From positions 248,001-312,000 of the forward strand of contig JAUICM010000005.1 in assembly GCA_030427885.1 (NCBI GenBank): DNA of 64,000 nt. The letters run 5' to 3'. The translations under genes and the position numbers were made by a program. Under the pieces are notes generated by a model. That model made no database searches. It was not told the origin of the DNA and was given only the letters and a program-made list of their open reading frames with translations. Numbering within the stretch: the stretch's first letter is position 1; the number at the start of each line of letters is the position of its first letter. Origin of the DNA: Rhodothermia bacterium. GTDB lineage: Bacteria; Bacteroidota; Rhodothermia; Balneolales; Balneolaceae. Shown here piece after piece: positions 4,979-17,413 of this stretch.

Positions 4979-5616
4979 CTATTTCCATTCATCAGGTCGC
5001 CTGATTTTTGGACCTATTGTATCTGGTAGTTGATGAGAAATCAAATCTTCTGACTTGAATTTTATAACATCAAAACAATATTGACTCAAGGATTTTGCAG
5101 TTCTAACATGTTGAGGCTGAACCAAAATAATAGTTTTTCCTAGTTCAGAAGAGACTATTCGGAATGCTTCACTCATATCAGTGTCATTAGTCAGAACTAA
5201 AGCTACGTCATATTGATCTTGAGTAGCTTCATATACCATGTGAACTGCAAGGTTTACATCAGAACCCTTTTCCTCTGGTAAATAGACTTTAACTAGTTCT
5301 TCCGTATCAACTAATGGCCTGTAAGCTTCATCGATCAAGAACTTTCCATATAAATCTCTAAATTTTCAGAGTGTAGTTCTAAGCCTCTCAGATAAGCGTT
5401 CTGTCTATGCGGCTTTGTTTGATCTTGAGCACCTGATACATGTGCAGTATAGTATTTGGAACATAAAATTTTATTCTTTTTATACTTTTTCTCAAGAATA
5501 CTTTTTGTGAAAGATTCAAGATCAAGCCATTTATACTTACGGTTCTCCTTATTTCTTTCCCCTCGAAATAAGTTGTAATACAAATTGAAGCCATCTATGT
5601 AGACAAATGTTCTCAT
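4979..5616 (-). pseudogene. NYN domain (LabA/DUF88-like) protein, frameshifted
   Basis: Two adjacent frames together spell one NYN/PIN-like RNase-type domain. The upstream frame (5335-5616) has the N-terminal VYIDGFNLYYN with the first acidic residue. The downstream frame (4979-5338) has EEKGSDVNLAVHMV and ALVLTNDTDMSEAF, the remaining acidic motifs. They join near 5340-5375, where the family expects a YGKF-like strand; a one-base indel would restore a 210-residue protein. No methionine or other start is needed for the second half if the frame is restored. It is either a recent pseudogene or a sequence error. Its transcription would begin just past the terminator at 5628-5654. Confidence 0.75.
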
Positions 5617-5654: not shown

Positions 5655-5746
5655 CCTGCCCTGAACAGAGTTCGAGGGTGTATTAATTTCTCTTCAAATA
5701 TAAATATTATATAGACAAATGTCATTTCAGTTTCAACTGTAACTCC

Positions 5747-5857
5747 TAATGAACCGGTGTTTAAGCGGCGAATCTGGAGGTTAAAATTAAAGACACGAAC
5801 CGCGTTATCAGAGCTGTGTCCGACCGCCGGCGGATCCGCTTGAAACGCTTGTTAGGC
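5747..5857 (-). other. attC site 1 (distal, partly decayed)
   Basis: The gene-proximal side is intact: GCCTAAC (R'') and AAGCGTTTCAAGCGG. The far side reads CCGCTTAAACACCGGTTCATTAG, with several changes from the array consensus, including loss of the G of the cleavable GTT. It is the last site of the array, 111 bp long, and may no longer accept insertions. Confidence 0.8.
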
Positions 5858-5877
5858 TAACAGACTTAAAGTCTGAT

Positions 5878-6369
5878 TTACCAATCAGGTTTAAAATCAT
5901 CATTTACTAATTTTCCTTTTCCAAAAATTTTTCTATTAATCACCTTTCCTGTAGAGTCAAAATATGCCCATACTCCATCTTTTTGATGGTTGGATGTCCA
6001 CCCACCACTTTGTTTTACCTGACCATTTTCATAATAAATTGACCAAGCCAAAAATTTTTGACCAAAATTAGTAGAATCAACATCGATGGGGTTATAAATT
6101 TCAAAAGTCTCTTTTAACAATTTTGAAATTTTATTATTGCTTGAGACTAAAACTAATGTGTCACTCAACATTGAATAAGAACCAGCTTGGTATTCATCTG
6201 AAAAAATTTGATCACCGTAAAAAGTTAGAACGCTTAGAGTGTAGTTACCATCTCTCAAATTTAAAGAGACATTGGAATTAGGACTAAAAAGCTCCATGTC
6301 AGAAATATTCTGAGCATTTAATAGTTCTGAGCAAGCTAATACAATCAGTGAAATTAATAAGATTTTCAT
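5878..6369 (-). CDS. Cassette gene: secreted MORN/YwqK-like protein
   Basis: 163 residues with a signal peptide (ILLISLIVLACSELLNAQ). The C-terminal half contains IYYENGQVKQSGGWTSNHQKDG and WAYFDSTGKVINRKIF, which match the repeated YYxNGQxKxxG pattern of MORN-2/YwqK-type proteins. It is probably periplasmic or outer-membrane associated; the role is unknown. The start codon lies about 10 bp inside the cassette start and the stop 20 bp before attC 1. The cassette ends GTTAGGC and GCCTAAC match. A 15-bp palindrome (5861-5875) lies between stop and attC. Confidence 0.75.
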   Translation of the reverse strand: MKILLISLIVLACSELLNAQNISDMELFSPNSNVSLNLRDGNYTLSVLTFYGDQIFSDEYQAGSYSMLSDTLVLVSSNNKISKLLKETFEIYNPIDVDSTNFGQKFLAWSIYYENGQVKQSGGWTSNHQKDGVWAYFDSTGKVINRKIFGKGKLVNDDFKPDW

Positions 6370-6378
6370 TTTCGTTAG

Positions 6379-6499
6379 CCTAACGACCCGGCGTTTAAGC
6401 GGCGCGGGGATTATGATTTCTTTGAAGTAGCGAAATTAATTCCTGGCAATCAAGTTGCATCGCACCTCGTCCGCGTCCGATTTAAAACGCATGTTATAG
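6379..6499 (-). other. attC site 2
   Basis: 121 bp. R'' on the minus strand is CTATAAC and R' is GTTAGGC, each belonging to a different cassette as expected for a filled array. The L boxes are ATGCGTTTTAAATCGGA and CGCCGCTTAAACGCC. The central spacer is unlike the two common spacer types of this array. Confidence 0.85.
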
Positions 6500-6664
6500 G
6501 GCGATTGATGGCAGGATTGGAAATTATTTTAACGCTCTATGTTTGAGTAGTAGCGGATTAGACACACATACATTTCAATAATTAAGATAACCAATAAAAG
6601 ACAAAAGCTTATTAGGTATGCCCTCAAACCACTATTAATTATACACGTTGTTGGCAGTAGTTTT
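6500..6664 (-). other. Spacer with GTTGGC-type boundary, possible second attC family
   Basis: 165 bp without a gene between attC 2 and the last gene of the six-gene block. On the minus strand it begins ACTGCCAACAACGTGTATAA (complement of 6639-6658), five bases after the stop of the 6665-7153 gene. The other end of the block has GTTGGCGGT (complement of 10169-10177), 16 bp before the sigma-factor start, so the two ends are inverted matches (8 of 9). From memory this resembles attC-like intergenic sequences of Flavobacteriia. Confidence 0.45.
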
Positions 6665-7153
6665 TTACTTCTTTCTCATGTTTTTGAACAGTCTGATAAA
6701 AATGTAGATATGACTTAAAAAAGTCGTTAAACCGTAAGTCACAAACATCAACCAAATGAAGCCTAGGTTTTGGTTGTAAAGTTCAAGTCCGAAAAACTGT
6801 GGGAAAGCTGTAATCAAATCTCCAAATCCAACGACGTTGAAAATCCATACTAATGGAAGGGCAAAACTCCATTTATTTTTCAGGCCGATTACAGCAATGA
6901 TTGCTAAGATTGCTGTGGTAAAATCGAGCAGGCCAACGGTGGTTAAAAATTCAACAGGAAATCCATCATAAAACTGCTCTTTTGCCATAAAGGACAATCC
7001 CAAATAGCGAAAGGTGTTGAGGAATACAAAAGGCAGAAGTGCTTCATATATTGGCAGCTTAGAAACACGGGGCTGTATCCAATATCTAAATCCGATTATG
7101 ATTGCAATCGTACCCGTAAGGGCTTGTAAATTGATGATTGTGAAATTGTCCAT
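6665..7153 (-). CDS. Multi-pass membrane protein, unknown function
   Basis: 162 residues with about five hydrophobic segments (around residues 8-23, 38-55, 74-90, 96-118, 128-155) and a basic C-terminus (LFKNMRKK). Not confidently assigned to a family. The start is 2 bp from the stop of the DUF1772-like gene, so it is the last gene of the six-gene cassette operon. Neighbours are also small integral membrane proteins and an SDR enzyme. Confidence 0.7.
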   Translation of the reverse strand: MDNFTIINLQALTGTIAIIIGFRYWIQPRVSKLPIYEALLPFVFLNTFRYLGLSFMAKEQFYDGFPVEFLTTVGLLDFTTAILAIIAVIGLKNKWSFALPLVWIFNVVGFGDLITAFPQFFGLELYNQNLGFIWLMFVTYGLTTFLSHIYIFIRLFKNMRKK

Positions 7154-7155
7154 GA

Positions 7156-7620
7156 TTAATTGTTTTGATTTAGTGAATTTTTATATGCTCTAACCGAAAA
7201 TATTGCTGCCACCATAACGAAAGTTGCCCTTACCCAATGTAGCATAAGCCACATATTGAGCTTGCTTGCGGCTACTTCGGCTGAGTATTTCATATCCATA
7301 AAACCGAAGTTGGTAGGTAAGTGATAGACACTGGTAATGGTGCAGGTGATCATTAATCCCACCAAGGCAATGATCCAATTCTTACGCACAGCTTTTTGAT
7401 CTTTTGTAGTCACTACCATTGCCACAGTGGCGATGAGTGCGGGCAGTAAAATTCCCATAGTAGGAGCTAATAGCAGTGGGAACTGAATCCCGAATTGTTG
7501 CATAAACTCTATCGGGTCTAAGGTCAGCCAATACCCGCCAAAACCAAGACCGATAACCACTAGATTTCCGATAAAGGCAGAAGTGCCAATAATTGCGATA
7601 TAGGGAAGTGCTTTCTTCAT
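7156..7620 (-). CDS. DUF1772-like membrane protein
   Basis: 154 residues with four hydrophobic helices. The C-terminal LNMWLMLHWVRATFVMVAAIFSVRAY, with an invariant-looking W..LHWVR, is the hallmark of the DUF1772 (anthrone oxygenase-like) family. Some fungal relatives act with oxidoreductases in polyketide pathways; in bacteria the role is unknown. It lies 1 bp after the SDR gene stop and is translationally coupled. Confidence 0.6.
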   Translation of the reverse strand: MKKALPYIAIIGTSAFIGNLVVIGLGFGGYWLTLDPIEFMQQFGIQFPLLLAPTMGILLPALIATVAMVVTTKDQKAVRKNWIIALVGLMITCTITSVYHLPTNFGFMDMKYSAEVAASKLNMWLMLHWVRATFVMVAAIFSVRAYKNSLNQNN

Positions 7621-7621
7621 A

Positions 7622-8383
7622 TTATTTTGTTTTAGGGATGGGCTGTTTGTTTAATTGCTTGAAAATGAATTTTGGAGCCAACCTACTCATCAGTTTGAGA
7701 AGCTTGGATATGCCTGGGGTGATTTCATCTTTGCCGTTCATGAAATCCTTCCAAAATATATCGGCCATTTTCTGCGGAGGCATGGGTTTCAGAATATCAT
7801 CTTCAGCAATGTCAGCTCCGTGAGCCAAAGGGGTATCAACAACGGGGGGTAAAAGTTCTACCACTCTAATTTCATGCGGCTTCAGTTGCGGACGAATAGC
7901 CATGGTCCAAAAATGCAATGCTGCTTTAGTTCCTGAATAGGTGGGAGCTTGAGTAAAAGGCACATAGGCTAAACCAGAGGAAGTATTGATTACCGTCCCT
8001 TTCTCGCTTTTCTTGAGTTGCGGAAGAAAGTAGTGCAACATTCGAATGGGCGCATTGAAGTTGATTTCAATTTCAGTAAACTGACGATCTAATTGATTGA
8101 CGTCACTACCTGCATCTATCAAGTTCATGATGCCGGCATTATTGAAGAGCACATCAATGCCACCAAAACTCTGTTCCATTTTCAGGGCTAAAGCTTTTAC
8201 GTCATCTTCATTGGTTACATCGCTATGCTCGATATGAATGGAAGGGAGGTCTGCCTTTACCTTTTCGAGTTTGGATAGATTTCGGCCTGTTACCACTACG
8301 TTATACTTGTATTCGAGGAATTTCTTAGCTATCGCTAATCCAATTCCTGAACTTCCGCCTGTAATTAGAACTGTATTCTTCAT
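7622..8383 (-). CDS. SDR family oxidoreductase (DltE-like)
   Basis: 253 residues of a classical short-chain dehydrogenase. The cofactor motif TGGSSGIGLAIAKKF is at residues 8-22 and NNAGIMN near 86-92. The catalytic serine lies in NTSSGLAYV and the tyrosine-lysine pair in YSGTKAALHF. The GRNLSKL segment after beta-2 contains an arginine typical of NADP(H) preference. The substrate is unknown; DltE-like members are common in Bacteroidota accessory operons. It sits centrally in the six-gene cassette. Confidence 0.9.
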   Translation of the reverse strand: MKNTVLITGGSSGIGLAIAKKFLEYKYNVVVTGRNLSKLEKVKADLPSIHIEHSDVTNEDDVKALALKMEQSFGGIDVLFNNAGIMNLIDAGSDVNQLDRQFTEIEINFNAPIRMLHYFLPQLKKSEKGTVINTSSGLAYVPFTQAPTYSGTKAALHFWTMAIRPQLKPHEIRVVELLPPVVDTPLAHGADIAEDDILKPMPPQKMADIFWKDFMNGKDEITPGISKLLKLMSRLAPKFIFKQLNKQPIPKTK

Positions 8384-8402
8384 TTTAATCCTATGATTAT
8401 TT

Positions 8403-8771
8403 TTAAAGTACGCCTGATTTTAAAAGCTTGGCATGCATCCAAAGCATGATTGCTGGAGGTATCAATTCAAGAAGGATTAGAAAAAGTAGAACAGGAGTTG
8501 CAGGGTAATTGATAAGAGCTACTGCTCTAACTACACCACCAATAATCAAGGCTATCATTACGAAGCGGAATAAGGTAGTCTCAGATGGATTCCAGGCGAC
8601 ATAAAAGAAGGCAAGTGACATGGCAGCCCATATCGCAGCTATGTATCTGTGGTTATTATCATCCATAGCGTTAAAAATCCCTGGATCATAGGCCGATGTC
8701 ATGGCCATAAAGCCAGTGGCGAGTGCAATTATTCCATAAAGGGCGAGAAAAAATCGAATGAATAGTAACAT
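8403..8771 (-). CDS. DUF4345-like membrane protein
   Basis: 122 residues with four hydrophobic helices. The first ends GFMAMTSAYDP; the segment NNHRYIAAIWAAMSLAFFYVAW matches the family pattern of an Asn-His/Tyr-Arg motif before helix 2. Function unknown. It lies between the SDR gene (19 bp) and the 145-residue membrane protein (2 bp) in one transcription unit. Confidence 0.6.
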   Translation of the reverse strand: MLLFIRFFLALYGIIALATGFMAMTSAYDPGIFNAMDDNNHRYIAAIWAAMSLAFFYVAWNPSETTLFRFVMIALIIGGVVRAVALINYPATPVLLFLILLELIPPAIMLWMHAKLLKSGVL

Positions 8772-8773
8772 GA

Positions 8774-9208
8774 TTAATCGTTTTTAGAAGGGTTTTTGAG
8801 AAAAGTGTAGGCTGCAATTACAATGGGTATTGCAAAAGGAATGTGTTGAATAATGTCCAATACAGAAGCATTCGGTACAAAGACACCCCAAACAACCATA
8901 TCAACGAGTATGACCAAGACAAGGGTTACAACATGGAATTGACCTGCTAATTTGAACTGGCCTTGGCGAATAGAGAGAATGACAAATATAGGAGGGAGGA
9001 AATCACAAATAGCTTTGAAAACGGCAACGATCTTTGCAAAACTAATCGCTGCATCTGTGTCTGCTGAAATGGAGAAAGACCCCTCAGCTGCTAATGGAAA
9101 GACTAGCCAAAAAATACCGATACCAATAAGCATAAAGGCTGAAATGTAACTGGCCCATATACCTGTTTTTATTTCCTTAGATAAATCACTGTAGCTGTAA
9201 TTTTTCAT
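8774..9208 (-). CDS. Four-helix integral membrane protein, unknown
   Basis: About 144 residues from the ATG at 9206-9208; a GTG two codons upstream is an alternative. It has four hydrophobic segments (residues about 17-37, 57-77, 86-106, 115-137) and ends in KNPSKND. I do not recognise the family. It is the first gene downstream of the sigma factor, and its start abuts a 12-bp perfect inverted repeat (9211-9257). This suggests control of the membrane/SDR genes separately from the sigma gene. Confidence 0.65.
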   Translation of the reverse strand: MKNYSYSDLSKEIKTGIWASYISAFMLIGIGIFWLVFPLAAEGSFSISADTDAAISFAKIVAVFKAICDFLPPIFVILSIRQGQFKLAGQFHVVTLVLVILVDMVVWGVFVPNASVLDIIQHIPFAIPIVIAAYTFLKNPSKND

Positions 9209-9210
9209 GA

Positions 9211-9257
9211 ACACCTGAGTTTGTTTTATTACTTAGACAAGTAAAAAACTCAGGTGT
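9211..9257. promoter_or_regulatory. 12-bp perfect inverted repeat between sigma factor and downstream operon
   Basis: ACACCTGAGTTT and AAACTCAGGTGT flank an inner TTACTT/AAGTAA pair. The element fills the gap between the sigma-factor stop and the next start. It could be an operator or an RNA structure that hides the ribosome entry site. A terminator is less likely because no T-run follows on the minus strand. Confidence 0.5.
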
Positions 9258-9277
9258 GACCACTTTGAAGAAAAAAC

Positions 9278-10153
9278 TTAATTCAAATTGAGATTGGTAC
9301 GCCAGTTAGGGCTTTCAAGAATGGATTGAAGGAAATTCTTTTTTTCGAATTGGGTTTTAAAACTACTATTTCTGTGTAATTCTGCGTAGAGCTCTTCTGA
9401 TTCTTCTACCAACTGGTTGGCTTGAGGCTCAATTTGATCTTGAAAAGTTGAGTACTCTTTGCGATTAAATAGAAGGTTCTTGGCATCTACCATTCCACTG
9501 TCAAGTGCTATCGTTACTTTCTTATGACATCTGCATGGATTTGATTTGTCTACCAAACCACATTTGTTCTGCATAAAATTATGAAGATGTTTTCTGGCTC
9601 TGCTCAGTTTCTTTCTATATGTAGCTTTTGAAACGGACATGATTTCAGAACCAATGTTATGGTCAGCGTCAAAAATGTCTCCAATTATATAAACGAGTCT
9701 TTGTTCCTTAGTTAAGCACAAAAGCATTCCTGATAGACACTGCAAACGCACTTCTCTTATCTCTTCTTTTTTAGCTTCCTGCTCATCATCAGATATATCA
9801 AAACTTGGAGTGTTGTCTAACGCATTCCCTAAATCATCAAAATTTTCCATGAAAGGACCATTTGGTTTTTTTTGTTGATTTAGAAAATGATTCCACACGA
9901 TGCGATATGCCCAGGTTCTAAATGTACTTTCACCTTTAAAAGAGTTCAGACTAGAAATGATTTTAATTAAAGCTTCTTGGGTTAGGTCTTCGGCTTGTAT
10001 GGGGTCACCAATCGTTTTCCAAGCAATGTTGTAAATGTAGGGTTGGTGTTTTTGGATTAGACTATTTAGAGACTGTTTTTTGCCTTTTAAAACCTCTTCT
10101 ATTAATGATGCGTCAGTCTTGTCTGAGTTGTATGCCGTTGAAAAAGGATTCAT
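9278..10153 (-). CDS. ECF-type RNA polymerase sigma factor with C-terminal extension
   Basis: 291 residues. Sigma region 2 is clear (YNIAWKTIGDPIQAEDLTQEALIKI and TFRTWAYRIVWNHFLNQQKK, residues about 40-110). Region 4 covers about residues 140-200 (LLCLTKEQRLVYIIGDIFD, then SKATYRKKLSRARKHLHNFM). A 90-residue tail begins with CGLVDKSNPCRCHKK, a Cys/His cluster that could bind a metal, as in other Bacteroidota factors of this type. No anti-sigma gene of recognisable type follows; the downstream membrane proteins are candidates. It is the first gene of the six-gene cassette. Confidence 0.88.
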   Translation of the reverse strand: MNPFSTAYNSDKTDASLIEEVLKGKKQSLNSLIQKHQPYIYNIAWKTIGDPIQAEDLTQEALIKIISSLNSFKGESTFRTWAYRIVWNHFLNQQKKPNGPFMENFDDLGNALDNTPSFDISDDEQEAKKEEIREVRLQCLSGMLLCLTKEQRLVYIIGDIFDADHNIGSEIMSVSKATYRKKLSRARKHLHNFMQNKCGLVDKSNPCRCHKKVTIALDSGMVDAKNLLFNRKEYSTFQDQIEPQANQLVEESEELYAELHRNSSFKTQFEKKNFLQSILESPNWRTNLNLN

Positions 10154-10173
10154 AGTTTCTTTTTTTGCACCGC

Positions 10174-10201
10174 CAACATTGGCATATAACCAATGATGTT
10201 G
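10174..10201. promoter_or_regulatory. Inverted repeat upstream of the cassette sigma-factor gene
   Basis: CAACATTGG and CCAATGATGTTG pair with one bulged base around a 7-base AT-rich loop, about 20-48 bp before the sigma start. It could be an operator for the sigma gene or the stem of a GTTGGC-type recombination site, since it overlaps that box. The rest of the 10202-10336 spacer is AT-rich with nothing recognised. Confidence 0.4.
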
Positions 10202-10336
10202 AGGTTATCCTTACTTGTACGAATGTTGAACTAATGCTATTCTTATAAGAATTAGTATAAGCTTAAGAAAGCGTAGATACTAGCATAGTTCGAATATCAT
10301 TTTAGATTCAAGAAATTTCTTGATATCACAACAGCC

Positions 10337-10426
10337 CTATAACGACCCTGCGTTTAAGGTGCGAGGCCGTGAGTTAATATTTTCAACTCGGACAGTAACC
10401 GAGTCACATTGAAACGCTTGTTATAC
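10337..10426 (-). other. attC site 3
   Basis: 90 bp. R'' GTATAAC and R' GTTATAG on the minus strand, with AAGCGTTTCAATGTGACTCGG and CACCTTAAACGCAGGGTC as inner boxes. The right arm of the hairpin carries changes (GCACC for GCCGC). The 10404-10733 coding sequence runs into this site. Confidence 0.85.
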
Positions 10427-10733
10427 CACTTTTTGATTTAAAGTAATTGAAAAGTAATATAAACAGGCTACTGAATAATAAACTATTTAGTAAAGCTGCA
10501 AGAACAACAACTAATACTTTAGGCACAAAATTGATTAATGGAGCAACTATTAAAATTGAAGGATAAATGATATAAGAACCGATCCAAATCATAATATCCA
10601 GAAAAACAGTTGTTGTACTTTCCCAAGCAGATAAAGCCATAACCCAAGCCATAAAATGTAAACCAACACTAACTACAAATAAGATTGTAGTTGAAATAAA
10701 TAGTTGGCGTTTTGTTGGTAAATAGCTTTTCAA
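10404..10733 (-). CDS. Cassette gene: small membrane protein
   Basis: 109 residues with three or four hydrophobic helices (residues about 10-30, 36-58, 64-98); family not recognised. The start lies about 15 bp from the cassette start. The coding sequence continues through the R'' and first L box of attC 3, so its last eight or so residues are encoded by the recombination site. Cassette ends match over GTTATACCACTT/AAGTGGTATAAC. Confidence 0.65.
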   Translation of the reverse strand: MKSYLPTKRQLFISTTILFVVSVGLHFMAWVMALSAWESTTTVFLDIMIWIGSYIIYPSILIVAPLINFVPKVLVVVLAALLNSLLFSSLFILLFNYFKSKSGITSVSM

Positions 10734-10743
10734 AGGTTAAGTG

Positions 10744-10889
10744 GTATAACGACCCGGCGTTTAAGCGGCGCAGGTTTTCGGTTTTTGTTGAAGTAACTGA
10801 ATTAATTTCATGCCCACAAGCTTTCCAGCGAACCCTGCCGGAGCCTGCACTGATGAAGATCAGGGTCCGACTTGAAACGCTTGTTATAC
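10744..10889 (-). other. attC site 4
   Basis: 146 bp, the longest site. R'' GTATAAC, R' GTTATAC. Inner boxes AAGCGTTTCAAGTCGGAC and CGCCGCTTAAACGCCGGGTC. The centre belongs to the long spacer type (GAAGTAACTGAATTAATT ... CACAAGCTTTCCAGCG), with a 22-bp insertion of GATGAAGATCAGGG-type sequence before the CGGAC. Confidence 0.88.
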
Positions 10890-10896
10890 CACTGAT

Positions 10897-11493
10897 TTAA
10901 CTGACAGTAATTTGGTATTCATGTTCCAATTTCCATTTACTTTCTGATTTAGAAAAAAGTAGAAAGTATGTCGCTCCACAAAGAGGACCACAATTTGCGT
11001 TTACAAAGAGTAGTGCTTTGTTCTCTTCACTATTTAATCCAACCCTGGAAAAACTCAATATGGTTTTAATTTCAGGATATTGCTCTGCAATGATTTGCCA
11101 ACTATTTGCTGACTCTATCATTTCTGAATACTCTTTTGAGGAGAAAATTTGGTACTCAAAGTAAGATTCAAACTTATCTAAGATTTCACTTTTCAAGCGG
11201 TTTTTAGAATTAAAATCAGTAATTAGATCTTTTGGAAGTTCAATATTCCATTCAGATTCCAGCTTTGAAATCATTTCATCATTAAGTGATAAATCTGAAC
11301 GTAGATAGGTTGAGTCTAGGATGGCAACATTTATACTATCTGTTTTTATAACACCACTTTCAGAAACATCATCCAAAAGTGCATTTAAAACTGAGTATTC
11401 GGTACTTGGAATGTCAGATTCATGATTTACACAACTAAAAAAACATGAAATTGAAAATGCTATAAGTAGAATATACTTGAATCTGGTTTTCAA
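10897..11493 (-). CDS. Cassette gene: lipoprotein of unknown function
   Basis: 198 residues with a lipoprotein signal (ILLIAFSISCFFSC, Cys21). The body is acidic and helical. The C-terminus, VGLNSEENKALLFVNANCGP followed by LCGATYFLLFSKSESKWKLE, resembles small secreted Bacteroidota proteins that have a paired-cysteine CGxLCG motif and a KWK ending. Probably anchored in the inner or outer membrane facing the periplasm. The stop lies 8 bp before attC 4. Confidence 0.7.
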   Translation of the reverse strand: MKTRFKYILLIAFSISCFFSCVNHESDIPSTEYSVLNALLDDVSESGVIKTDSINVAILDSTYLRSDLSLNDEMISKLESEWNIELPKDLITDFNSKNRLKSEILDKFESYFEYQIFSSKEYSEMIESANSWQIIAEQYPEIKTILSFSRVGLNSEENKALLFVNANCGPLCGATYFLLFSKSESKWKLEHEYQITVS

Positions 11494-11500
11494 TTAAGTG

Positions 11501-11590
11501 GTATAACGACCCGGCGTTTAAACGGCGAGTCTGGGGGTTAAAATTAAAGACCCGAACCACGTTCGAGTCCGCTTGAAACGCTTGTTAGCT
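11501..11590 (-). other. attC site 5
   Basis: 90 bp, short spacer type. R'' AGCTAAC, R' GTTATAC. Inner boxes AAGCGTTTCAAGCGGAC and CGCCGTTTAAACGCCGGGTC. The spacer shares TTAAAATTAAAGACCCGAAC-like sequence with sites 1 and 8. Confidence 0.9.
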
Positions 11591-11592
11591 CT

Positions 11593-12204
11593 CTAGTCAA
11601 GTTTCAACTCTCTTCGCATTTGAAGAATAATTTTCTCTTTAAGTTTATTGGCTTCTTTACCTTTTTCAGTCATTTTTTTAGCAATAGGTGCTTCGAAATC
11701 TGGCTGTGTTAATGAATCATTCATTTCAGAAAGCCAATCTGATGAAAGCTCAAGAATTTCCTGACTAAGAACTTCAAATTCAGTTGTTAACTCAAATAAT
11801 TTTTCTGAACCTAGAATTTTGAGTGTTGTAATCTCTGCAGTCGCTTTTCTATGTGAATCCTGAATTAATTGCGGGAAACTTCCAACAGCATCTTGAAATT
11901 TAATAATTGCTTCTGGAGAATTATCAGATTCAAGAAGTTCTTTAAAAGCATTTTTTAGAGTAACCTTCGAAAAATGTTCATAATCTAATCCCATGCCTTC
12001 AGCAGCTTCCTCATACTTCTTAAAATACTCTGTGTAGACTCGGGTTCTAATCTCCAAAATCTTATTCTCTCTTTCTCTTCTTCCTTTTAAATAATGAAGT
12101 AGTATAGGGACTATCACAGAGGCTAGAATAACACAAATTGCTGGTACAAGTATCTGTGGATCAAACCAATTCATTTCAGAAGCTGTATCAGTTGTTTGTA
12201 TCAT
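11593..12204 (-). CDS. Cassette gene: membrane-anchored coiled-coil protein
   Basis: 203 residues. One N-terminal transmembrane helix (IVPAICVILASVIVPILL type, residues about 17-39) is followed by the basic KGRRERENKI stretch and a long acidic helical domain. Repeated heptad-like leucines suggest a coiled coil. No enzyme motif is seen. Cassette ends GTTAGCTCTCT/AGAGAGCTAAC are perfect over 11 bp. The stop is 2 bp from attC 5. Confidence 0.65.
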   Translation of the reverse strand: MIQTTDTASEMNWFDPQILVPAICVILASVIVPILLHYLKGRRERENKILEIRTRVYTEYFKKYEEAAEGMGLDYEHFSKVTLKNAFKELLESDNSPEAIIKFQDAVGSFPQLIQDSHRKATAEITTLKILGSEKLFELTTEFEVLSQEILELSSDWLSEMNDSLTQPDFEAPIAKKMTEKGKEANKLKEKIILQMRRELKLD

Positions 12205-12214
12205 TTTTAAAGAG

Positions 12215-12338
12215 AGCTAACGACCCGGCGTTTAAGCGGCGCAGGTTCTCGGTTTTTGTTGAAGTAACTGATTTATTTTATTGGCTACAAGCTTTCCGGC
12301 GAACACTACCTGCGTCCGACTTAAAACGCTTGTTATAC
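12215..12338 (-). other. attC site 6
   Basis: 124 bp, long spacer type. R'' GTATAAC, R' GTTAGCT. Inner boxes AAGCGTTTTAAGTCGGAC and CGCCGCTTAAACGCCGGGTC, with an extra unpaired T. GCAGGT and ACCTGC form a further inner stem. Confidence 0.9.
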
Positions 12339-12346
12339 GTTTGGTT

Positions 12347-12826
12347 TTAATAGTCATCTAAATCTCCATCTTCGAGAGGAATCCAACCAGGAGGGTTGTA
12401 ATTTGTTTTGATGATTTCCACAATATTCTCCAAATACTGAAGCTTTTGCTTATTCGTGAAAAGAGATTCATTTCTCGAAAAGAATCCATTTAATACATCT
12501 AAAATATTTTGGACCGAATAATCTTTGATAAATTGAATTTTTTGATCTTCGTAGATTAATAAAAATGGTCTTTGATGAGACCCGGCAATTTCGAACTTAA
12601 AAATTCCAGTCTTTGTCGAATCAAAAGCTGAATAGTCTAAAGCGCTCACCAAAAAAATTGAGGGAGTAAACCGTTCTAATGCCGAAGCGCTAATTTGATT
12701 TTGATCAATGAGAAATGCGAAAAGCTCCTCTTTCAAATCTTCATCTTCAACAAGTTTCGATTGAGCAAAAGAAAAGGAATGAACTCCAACTAATAAGATC
12801 AGCAAAACAAAAATTCGATTTCTCAT
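12347..12826 (-). CDS. Cassette gene: secreted protein of unknown function
   Basis: 159 residues with a signal peptide (RIFVLLILLVGVHSFSFAQ). The mature part is acidic and helical with no family match I can name; the end NYNPPGWIPLEDGDLDDY is distinctive. It ends 9 bp before attC 6. Cassette ends GTTATACGTTT/AAACGTATAAC match over 11 bp. Confidence 0.65.
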   Translation of the reverse strand: MRNRIFVLLILLVGVHSFSFAQSKLVEDEDLKEELFAFLIDQNQISASALERFTPSIFLVSALDYSAFDSTKTGIFKFEIAGSHQRPFLLIYEDQKIQFIKDYSVQNILDVLNGFFSRNESLFTNKQKLQYLENIVEIIKTNYNPPGWIPLEDGDLDDY

Positions 12827-12847
12827 TAGACTAAGATTTAAGAAAAC

Positions 12848-12971
12848 GTATAACGACCCGGCGTTTAAGCGGCGCAGGTGTTCGTTTTTAATTGAAGTAA
12901 CTGAATTAATTTCATGACCACAAGCTTAAGTGCGAACCCTACCTGCGTCCGCCTTGAAACGCTTGTTATAC
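12848..12971 (-). other. attC site 7
   Basis: 124 bp, long spacer type. R'' GTATAAC, R' GTTATAC. Inner boxes AAGCGTTTCAAGGCGGAC and CGCCGCTTAAACGCCGGGTC. R'' supplies the stop codon of the 12966-13256 gene. Confidence 0.9.
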
Positions 12972-13256
12972 TGCCAGCGATTTGAATTTAGTAAGACAGA
13001 ATCCAAAGTCATCATCGTTAGGTTTGAGCGTTGACCAAATTGGTTCCCAAATAGGAAAGCCTCTGATCTTCTTCTTAGTTTTTTCTTGAATACTAAGTTC
13101 GTAGTCTTTTCCATCCCAAACTAACCTGATGTCAGGTTTTCGTTTAACTGAGATTAACCAGCTACCAAAAACCAACGGCTCATACTTTGATTCTAAAACT
13201 TTCAGATTTAACTGCTCAATTTCCTGAAGTGCTATATCAAAGGCTTTTTTATTCAT
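12966..13256 (-). CDS. Cassette gene: small hypothetical protein
   Basis: 96 residues, soluble, basic-acidic mix, with WLISVKRKPDIRLVWDGKDYEL near the middle and many aromatic residues; no family recognised. The ATG lies about 8 bp inside the cassette start, and the TAA stop is formed by the R'' box of attC 7. This gene therefore spans almost the whole cassette. Ends GTTATACTGCCA/TGGCAGTATAAC match over 12 bp. Confidence 0.65.
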   Translation of the reverse strand: MNKKAFDIALQEIEQLNLKVLESKYEPLVFGSWLISVKRKPDIRLVWDGKDYELSIQEKTKKKIRGFPIWEPIWSTLKPNDDDFGFCLTKFKSLAV

Positions 13257-13261
13257 TGGCA

Positions 13262-13351
13262 GTATAACGACCCGGCGTTTAAGCGGCGAGCCTCGAGTTT
13301 AAAATTAAGATTCCGAACCCTAAACGAGTCCGCTTGAAACGCTTGTTATGC
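13262..13351 (-). other. attC site 8
   Basis: 90 bp, short spacer type. R'' GCATAAC, R' GTTATAC. Inner boxes AAGCGTTTCAAGCGGAC and CGCCGCTTAAACGCCGGGTC with one extra unpaired C. The same length and spacer family as site 5. Confidence 0.9.
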
Positions 13352-13356
13352 AACCA

Positions 13357-13905
13357 CTAAAGCTGTTCACTGATTAATAACACGCTATCTTTCTTTGCAT
13401 TGAAAATTACATAATAATCCAAAGGCCAATTATTTAACATATAGACTTCATAAGCATTCAAAGAATCAATTCGTGAAGCAGCTTTTTCTTCTGCCTCTAA
13501 ATATTTCAAATATCTATTCATTTTATCCCTTGAGTTCCCAACGTTTACATAGAAGCCACATTCTTTTTGGTTAAACAGAATTCCGGGTTCACCACTTTCT
13601 GATACCAGATCTTGAAGTTTAAAATTTTCCATATTCAACAAGGAATCTGTTGGAATAGAGGTAGTTTGCCAACAGGATAATTCGGTATCCAGCATAAACC
13701 ATAAATCTTTTGAGTTCTCTATCTCCCGGGATTTAAGTTCATCGATGAATTTCAGTCCGGCATTTTCGGACACCTTTACCAAATCACCTTCTACACCAAA
13801 AATGATAAGTTCCGAATCAATCCAGAAATAGTGACTTTGATTTCTGTCCGCACATCCAAAGGCGAGAAGAAAAAAAAGCAGTGATATTAAGTTCAGCTTG
13901 ACCAT
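13357..13905 (-). CDS. Cassette gene: lipoprotein of unknown function
   Basis: 182 residues with a lipoprotein signal peptide (LISLLFFLLAFGC, Cys18). The mature protein begins ADRNQSHYFWIDSEL and has two further cysteines in the middle region (SCWQTT and KECGFYV). No family recognised. The stop is 5 bp from attC 8. Cassette ends GTTATGCAACC/GGTTGCATAAC match over 11 bp. Confidence 0.68.
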   Translation of the reverse strand: MVKLNLISLLFFLLAFGCADRNQSHYFWIDSELIIFGVEGDLVKVSENAGLKFIDELKSREIENSKDLWFMLDTELSCWQTTSIPTDSLLNMENFKLQDLVSESGEPGILFNQKECGFYVNVGNSRDKMNRYLKYLEAEEKAASRIDSLNAYEVYMLNNWPLDYYVIFNAKKDSVLLISEQL

Positions 13906-13914
13906 TCTTAGGTT

Positions 13915-14038
13915 GCATAACGACCCGGCGTTTAAGCGGCGCAGGTTCTCGTTTTTTGTTGAAGTAACTAATTTATTTTATTGCTCACAAGCTTAAGTGC
14001 GAATTCTACCTGCGTCCGACTTAAAACGCTTGTTATAT
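13915..14038 (-). other. attC site 9
   Basis: 124 bp, long spacer type. R'' ATATAAC, R' GTTATGC. Inner boxes AAGCGTTTTAAGTCGGAC and CGCCGCTTAAACGCCGGGTC. Nearly the same sequence as site 6. Confidence 0.9.
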
Positions 14039-14383
14039 GCCCGAGGGCTTAGCGTACTGTTTATATTTTACTACAAACTTCTTAGCCTCTTCGAGTGTCT
14101 CAGGATATGGTACAGTATCGTGATGACCTGAGCCAACTCGAATTTTCTGAAAATGAAAACCATGATCAACAAGAAATTTCACTTTTGCCCATTGTTTTGC
14201 ATCAGACTTTTTTGGTGGCTTAAAATGACGTCCTAAGTTTGTCGCTGCTTTACCACAATCTGGACAAGGGAGTTCTTTAGGGATTTCCCCAAAAAAGTTA
14301 ACCTGTCTCTTGAAGGACTTGCGACATTCAAAACAAGCAAAAGATATGTGATAAGGAGTAGCCATTTTTAGGGCATATAACAT
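14033..14383 (-). CDS. Cassette gene: zinc-ribbon protein (first cassette)
   Basis: Up to 116 residues; an internal ATG gives 110 residues, starting MATPYHISFACFECRK. Two Cys pairs, CFEC and CPDC, about 22 residues apart, form a probable zinc ribbon. A helical domain with KQWAKVKFLVDHGFHFQKIR follows. The upstream ATG overlaps the recombination box at the cassette start, so the internal ATG is more likely. The stop codon falls in R'' of attC 9. This cassette is closest to the presumed insertion end of the array. Confidence 0.7.
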   Translation of the reverse strand: MLYALKMATPYHISFACFECRKSFKRQVNFFGEIPKELPCPDCGKAATNLGRHFKPPKKSDAKQWAKVKFLVDHGFHFQKIRVGSGHHDTVPYPETLEEAKKFVVKYKQYAKPSGI

Positions 14384-14642
14384 AATATTATACGAACAAG
14401 CAGATGTTATCAGACGTCAGATAATATCCCGGAAACTAACCAGATAACTCATTATGAGTTATTTTGGGATTTTATCAGACGTAATACTTCAGATATCCAC
14501 TTCATATAAAATCCAATCAGTTTACAAGGACTTGTCTGCCCATTCGCCTGACAAGATAATCCATAATTACTTTGTTTCCAGAATTATATAGCTAAGCAGA
14601 ATAGAAAGTACGTAAGGGGTATAAAGCGATGGATTATGAATG
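14384..14642. other. Non-coding region next to the first cassette, possible attI remnant
   Basis: About 260 bp without a gene. It contains an 11-bp direct repeat TTATCAGACGT (14407-14417 and 14472-14482), a palindrome ATAACTCAT-T-ATGAGTTAT (14444-14462), and an inverted repeat CTTGTC/GACAAG (14531-14555). Integron attI sites lie at this position and carry direct repeats bound by the integrase, so this could be a relic attI with the cassette promoter. No integrase gene is present on either side. Confidence 0.35.
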
Positions 14643-16501: not shown

Positions 16502-17413
16502 TCAACCCCGGGGGTGGAATTGCTTATGGGTTTGCTGAAGCAGAGATCTGTCGACATGGGTATAGATCTCAGTGGTAAGGATGGAGGAATGGCCCAGCAT
16601 TTCCTGTACGGCTCGAAGATCGGCACCACCTTCCAGCAGATGGGTGGCAAAAGAATGCCGGAAGATGTGAGGATATACTTTCTTTTTGATATCCGCATCT
16701 TTGGCTGCTTTCTGAACAATATTCCAGATACTCATTCTGCTCAAAGCCCCGCCACGTTGATTCAGAAAAACTTTATTTTTTGATTTGTGTGCTTTTTCGG
16801 GATTGTAAAACAGGGGACGGGCATGTTCAATGTAATGCTCCAATGCTTCCTGGGCAATCTCACCTACAGGAACCAGTCGTTCCTTACTTCCTTTTCCGAT
16901 CACACGAATGAAACCGATCTCGAAATACATCCTATCCGTTTCCAGGTCTGTGAGTTCACTCACCCGCATTCCGGTTCCGTACAGACATTCAAGGATCGCT
17001 TTGTCGCGTATGCCAGCTGGTTGGCTGATATCCGGGGTGTCGAGCATGGCTTCTATCTCAACAGCATCCAGAATCTCGGGTAGTTTTTTGGCCTTCTTGG
17101 GAAGTTCTATCAATTCAGCCGGATTGGCTGCTGTGATCCCTTCAACTACTGCAAATTCATGGAAGCCACGGATACTGGAAATATTGCGAGCCAGGGAACT
17201 GGCTGATAGAAACTCATGATCAATGAGGTAATCCAGAAAATCCTCAATATGAGTTAAAGTAACTCCGGCCAGATCAGTGATCTTTTTTTCAACATTCAGG
17301 AACAGCAGATAGCGGTTCAGATCGTTTTCATAAGAGACGATAGAATTCTCAGATAAGCCTTTTTCAAGCTTGATGAATTGTAGATAAAGATTCAGTTCCT
17401 GTTTGAATAACAC
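16502..17413 (-). CDS. xerD: Site-specific tyrosine recombinase XerD-like
   Basis: 303 residues. The N-terminal SAM-like domain (LNLYLQFIKLEKGLSENSI) is followed by the catalytic domain with Arg150 (GTGMRVSEL), Lys174 (GKGSKER), His249 and Arg252 (HIFRHSFATHLL), His275 (GHSSILTT) and the nucleophile Tyr284 (IYTHVD). Length and ending are those of chromosome-dimer-resolving XerD. It lacks the extra helix that defines integron integrases, so it should not be taken as the integrase of the nearby cassettes. It lies 2 bp from the PgpH-like gene. Confidence 0.92.
   Translation of the reverse strand: MLFKQELNLYLQFIKLEKGLSENSIVSYENDLNRYLLFLNVEKKITDLAGVTLTHIEDFLDYLIDHEFLSASSLARNISSIRGFHEFAVVEGITAANPAELIELPKKAKKLPEILDAVEIEAMLDTPDISQPAGIRDKAILECLYGTGMRVSELTDLETDRMYFEIGFIRVIGKGSKERLVPVGEIAQEALEHYIEHARPLFYNPEKAHKSKNKVFLNQRGGALSRMSIWNIVQKAAKDADIKKKVYPHIFRHSFATHLLEGGADLRAVQEMLGHSSILTTEIYTHVDRSLLQQTHKQFHPRG

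Follow-up and report, generated by a model that had tools for sequence, protein, structure and literature searches.

A gene cassette array of a Balneolaceae genome begins at an attI-like site and is probably served by an integron integrase on another contig

How can an integron-type cassette array stand in a chromosome with no integrase beside it? The question is raised by positions 5750–14380 of the window, the 64,000-nucleotide stretch analyzed here (C10:248001–312000 of genome G000, which comprises 4.15 Mb in 13 contigs). The initial annotation had read this segment as nine sites in one orientation that share R and L boxes, an extrahelical base and a spacer, and that separate small genes read the same way. 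In agreement with it, nine attC sites span 5743–14039, all in a single orientation on the minus strand, and the L-box pattern matches nine times in the window, compared with 0.15 matches expected by shuffling. On the plus strand the sites share TAAC-GACCCGGCGTTTAAGC as their left-hand pattern and TTGAAACGCnTGTTA as their right-hand one. The genes lie on the minus strand, and in that reading the order within each site is R''-L''-loop-L'-R', an additional C being present in L''. Given this extra L-box base (GCGTTTCAAGC versus GCTTAAACGC), the minus strand is the attC 'top' strand and the extrahelical G lies on the recombining bottom strand, the polarity of known attC sites.

A covariance model built from these nine sites (R1, a small model) retrieved at E ≤ 10 exactly the same nine from the window, on the minus strand only, with E values from 7e-40 to 2e-16. 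Running it on the whole genome, as the initial annotation had proposed, yielded 26 further, out-of-sample sites at E ≤ 0.01 (35 in total), 15 of which directly adjoin an integron integrase, and the integron-type reading of the array is supported. At E ≤ 0.001, R1 had no match in 14 of the 39 genomes searched. Counted from the array end, the sites lie at 5743–5858 (site 1, with a degraded R' box, GTTCATTAG; 63.6 bits), 6377–6500 (site 2; 116.1 bits), 10336–10427 (site 3; 77.2 bits), 10743–10890 (site 4, a long form with an additional loop segment; 130.6 bits), 11500–11591 (site 5, short form; 87.1 bits), 12214–12339 (site 6; 138.4 bits), 12847–12972 (site 7; 142.5 bits), 13261–13352 (site 8, short form; 92.1 bits) and 13914–14039 (site 9, of cassette 1; 140.6 bits). 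In the predicted fold of its bottom strand (the plus strand), site 7 has its R box paired, with a z score of −5.4; the fold of site 8 reaches −2.2, and that of site 5 (−0.6) is no better than shuffles at the junction R boxes. Throughout G000 the attC sites take forms of 92, 126 and 148 nt, the last having an additional CCCTGATCTTCATCAGTGCAGG segment, of which C5:569046 shows a partial doubling. The G+C content of the array is 37% against 43% in the flanks, and Rfam and tRNA searches of the window gave no match. Past the array end, an NYN-domain gene (4979–5616) is present as two overlapping ORFs, a probable frameshift.

The array holds nine cassettes, all on the minus strand, as are their genes. 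In an integron, complementarity is expected between both ends of one cassette, and not between the halves of one integrated site. Accordingly, in all eight between-site cassettes the two ends agree with their own partner over 10–12 nt and meet at G|TT, whereas within a single integrated site the two R boxes match over 4–7 nt, with the exception of site 4 (11 nt). The earlier statement that each gene is bounded by its own matched ends holds for eight cassettes, with the corrections that one of them contains six genes and that the R' box of site 1 is degraded. From the head, the cassettes encode a zinc-ribbon-like protein (cassette 1, 13921–14380; ORF 14033–14383), a lipoprotein-like protein of no family (cassette 2, 13268–13920; ORF 13357–13905), a 96-aa protein of no family (cassette 3, 12854–13267; ORF 12966–13256), a secreted-like protein of no family (cassette 4, 12221–12853; ORF 12347–12826), a membrane-anchored protein of no family (cassette 5, 11507–12220; ORF 11593–12204), a lipoprotein-like protein (cassette 6, 10750–11506; ORF 10897–11493) and a membrane protein (cassette 7, 10343–10749; ORF 10404–10733). 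Cassette 8 (6384–10342, 3,959 bp) contains, by Pfam, genes for a sigma-70 factor (9278–10153), a protein with a weak DUF4267 match (8774–9214), a DUF4345 protein (8403–8771), a short-chain dehydrogenase (7622–8383), an anthrone-oxygenase-like protein (7156–7620) and a membrane protein (6665–7153). Because its own outer ends match (GTTATAGGGC / GCCCTATAAC) and R1 finds no internal attC in 6384–10342, this 3.96-kb sigma factor/dehydrogenase block is one cassette. Cassette 9 (5750–6383; ORF 5878–6369) encodes a 163-aa secreted protein with a weak MORN-like repeat. Most of the cassette genes have no Pfam family, as the description of them as mostly unrecognised had implied.

That no integrase is visible proved correct for the window, where the sole tyrosine recombinase near the array is XerD, but not for the genome. 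The XerD gene (16502–17413) is ruled out as the responsible integrase, since it scores as housekeeping XerD and not as IntI. A search for an IntI-type recombinase, likewise proposed earlier, identified a full-length IntI of 320 aa on contig C5 (C5:529082–530026; TIGR02249, 436.6 bits against a cut-off of 265). It aligns with the Vibrio cholerae IntI structure 2a3v over 316 residues, and in this alignment the catalytic R, HxxR, H and Y as well as the IntI-specific insertion are present. The gene adjoins metK and is divergent from a 15-site attC array, with attI between them. The C5 locus, with its IntI, adjacent attI and array, is a complete integron, and the same layout occurs in Gracilimonas, Balneola and other Balneolaceae relatives. 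SOS (LexA) control is not an obligatory feature of complete integrons. Upstream of the C5 intI, no LexA site with the Balneolaeota motif (consensus from PMC7739468) was found. One C5 integron cassette harbors a Septu defence pair (C5:538412–540306; L010:8312–10206), with PADLOC scores of 538 bits for PtuA and 241 bits for PtuB. Because the IntI with its own attI and array sits on this other contig, the window array is a CALIN in an integron-bearing genome, a CALIN being defined as at least two attC sites in one orientation with no intI nearby (Cury et al., IntegronFinder, PMC9024848). An array in an FCB-type chromosome, which the initial annotation deemed noteworthy, is not new in itself, as integrons of this group are known but rare, with complete ones in Chlorobi, Ignavibacteriae and Salinibacter ruber (PMC9024848); the noteworthy feature is that the array starts at an attI-like site that lacks intI.

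At this head, the cassette junction lies between 14380 and 14381, adjoining the sequence TTATctGACGTCTgATAA-N10-TTCGTATAATATTATG|TTA (14381–14429, minus strand). Neither intI nor an intI remnant was found near this or the other own-genome heads, and given the absence of an adjacent intI we call the site an orphan attI. Profile R2, a small model derived from seven intI-linked attI sites of relatives with the own genome left out, gave four matches in G000, among which the window head ranks first (27.4 bits, E = 1.5e-5), level with the true attI in second place (27.3 bits). The core TTCGTATAATATTATG|TTA of the window head is common to the true C5 attI and the attI sites of relatives. Within G000, the motif TTCGnATAnTAnTATGTTA occurs at the true attI, at the window head and at the heads of the C5:568, C2:233, C2:670 and C3:12903 arrays, and additionally at C3:117 (a contig end) and C12:248, where attC was not found. 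Allowing up to one mismatch, eight attI-core matches were counted in the genome, against zero for the reversed control pattern. A second head class comprises three heads that share 82 bp at 87%–90% identity, a stretch absent elsewhere in the genome. An orphan head of the relative G060 shares 90% identity with the window head over 52 nt. The strong attI likeness of the window head covers about 50 nt and is weak beyond, where co-linear similarity to two intI-bearing attI regions continues to about 14566 (186 nt, E 0.002–0.006). Judged by similarity that includes sequence upstream of the core, the window head is attI-like. The orphan attI-like site on C12 (C12:248270–248319), without detectable attC, is followed by a gene pair (L093:2026–3229) matching the PADLOC candidates PDC-M34A and PDC-M34B at 255 and 233 bits.

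Such sites recur across the family. A search of 92 Balneolaceae genomes with R2 listed 56 sites from 19 genomes, with four genera accounting for nearly all; the genome set consists of draft contigs, has metagenome assemblies among the relatives and includes no genome congeneric with G000. Classification of the 53 attI-like sites with flanking sequence, which are not independent since loci recur between species, gave 11 intI-linked and 42 orphan sites. Eight of the intI-linked sites have a full-length intI at −204 to −219, and the other three, all in G017, have fragments. These three (on C74, C77 and C5 of G017) retain intI pieces of residues 1–200, 1–33 and 1–35, and two further G017 heads share 259 bp that include the first intI codons. 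The G017 sites with intI pieces are integrons in the course of losing their integrase, so that some orphans are decayed integrons. Downstream of 31 of the 42 orphans, attC sites lie within 4 kb, all co-directional, and in 3 cases attC is found upstream. The nearest upstream gene is co-oriented with the orphan attI in 36 of 41 cases, its 3' end 86–640 bp away, an arrangement that would permit read-through transcription of the cassettes. Many orphans align with intI-linked attI sites over 90–260 bp, frequently ending just short of the intI start; within one genome the identity reaches 98.9% over 180 bp (G064) and 97% over 133 bp (G057). In 54 heads, counts of the box CGnATAA/TTATnCG in successive 50-nt bins upstream of the crossover are 48, 47, 54, 3 and 0, with the second and third bins mostly outside the portion used for site selection.

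Comparison of shared loci suggests turnover of the cassettes. One orphan locus is common to G061 and G059: as far as the crossover their flanks share 96.9% identity over 1.5 kb, different cassettes follow, and common sequence returns at G|TTAGCAACC, behind two distinct attC sites. At a second locus of this pair the flanks are 89% identical before and 95.3% identical over 1.6 kb after the first cassette, which itself differs, and the rejoining is not clearly at G|TT. Cassettes likewise change at the head between G057 and G062 (90.8%), between G064 and G059 (82.9%) and among four genomes behind tatD. The alignments show cassette exchange exactly at G|TT at orphan attI sites of sister genomes. 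In the own genome, C3:1–120 is identical over 120 nt to a C5-integron cassette, from exactly G|TT, with an orphan attI at C3:117, and the other end of this cassette copy is the start of contig C8. Since C3 and C8 each terminate within a second copy of that cassette, these contigs are probably neighbors that form one array; one cassette stands at both the C5 integron and another own-genome orphan attI. As for the window locus, G017 lacks the array: there, 609 bp separate the two flanking genes, for a hydrolase and a WYL regulator. A search of the 92 family genomes with 912 bp of the window flank gave short matches only, two of which are orphan attI heads.

These observations enable us to propose a putative model, which we consider likely, in which an orphan attI anchors the window array, a CALIN, which is filled by the C5 IntI in trans. 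In such a system, IntI joins a circular cassette through its single-strand-folded attC to attI at G|TT, and cassettes stack behind attI, the newest nearest to it. For the window array, the integrase would be supplied in trans from the C5 integron. The orphan attI would be a copy of the attI region, with the core TTCGnATAATATTATG|TTA and upstream CGnATAA/TTATnCG boxes to about −150 nt. Such copies sit away from intI at many loci, in most cases behind a co-oriented gene, and would act as chromosomal landing pads with cassette turnover. The attC sites, the cassette logic, the IntI gene and the attI homology are each evident from sequence, as are the exchange of cassettes at G|TT in sister genomes and the cassette common to the C5 integron and another orphan attI; we infer both that the C5 IntI acts on the window site, and still does, and the manner in which the attI copies spread.

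The main rival, a process that is real in G017, is the decay of a complete integron, whereby the window array would have lost its own intI beside attI and its cassettes would now be frozen. In favor of decay, the window head is of the true attI type; G017 offers the precedent of three attI sites with intI pieces and two heads with intI codons in their shared 259 bp, and intI loss is a proposed route to CALINs (PMC8618304). Against it, no intI remnant lies near the window head or the other own-genome heads, the window array has the same kind of attC site as the live C5 integron, and up to seven attI sites per genome would require many separate losses. Several orphans match the intI-linked attI of their own genome at 97%–99% identity and are therefore recent copies. 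We regard decay as possible for the window array, yet clearly the less probable course. A second rival, in which IntI placed the cassettes at a chance site in the chromosome (attG) and the attI likeness reflects target preference or later selection, seems to us rather unlikely, though insertion of this kind is experimentally established (Loot et al. 2024, as presented in PMC12444791 and PMC12901181). The length of the copied stretch makes it less likely: orphans share 90–260 bp with attI, well past a short target consensus, and their accessory boxes reach −150 nt. Besides, an attG target should differ greatly from attI and attC, whereas the window head is attI-like; the eight core matches in G000 have no counterpart in the reversed control, and at one locus the pads are retained from species to species. 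An account by a few bases around G|TT is contradicted for many heads, and less firmly for the window head. That the repeats are not of integron origin but belong to another family or a Xer-type element is very improbable. The XerD gene 2 kb away and the somewhat dif-like attI core might suggest it, but that gene is the housekeeping XerD, IntI-type attC features are present, and the same repeats stand, out of sample, beside true IntI in G000 and related genomes.

The arrangement that we favor, a CALIN on an orphan attI served from C5, resembles known systems in part. CALINs have been described as degraded, rearranged or off-target arrays (PMC9024848). The window array is like them in its single orientation without a near intI, with an intI elsewhere in the genome that could act in trans; it differs in that, like most other G000 arrays, it begins at an attI copy. 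The C5 locus, with intI divergent from the array, an attI, 15 closely similar attC sites and cassette genes mostly of unknown kind, is reminiscent of the sedentary chromosomal integrons of the Vibrio and Xanthomonas type, but those have one array, whereas G000 has several attI sites and short arrays over many loci. Insertion at attG likewise brings cassettes in at G|TT away from the integron's own site (Loot et al. 2024, via the same two papers); there the target is short and divergent, and here it is a 90–260-bp attI copy whose position is conserved between species. Several species of Xanthomonas carry CALINs at shared chromosomal positions, as is seen for the loci described here, but the portions of PMC12444791 consulted report no attI copy at those positions.

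In summary, Balneolaceae join the groups that are rich in chromosomal integrons, and their cassettes include a Septu defence system. We lean, if only modestly, toward a 'distributed integron', in which one integrase serves dispersed attI copies at fixed loci that are kept through speciation, and in which most CALINs here would be working satellite platforms rather than wrecks. In the open-licence literature, to which our search was confined, we found no earlier description of orphan, multiple or attI-like sites. CALINs are common and usually regarded as debris or off-target insertions. The pads can be found by profile, so that their content can be compared between strains as a direct test. If attI itself has been copied, one integrase would feed many loci, each with its own neighboring transcription, which would change the understanding of cassette capture, expression and stability.
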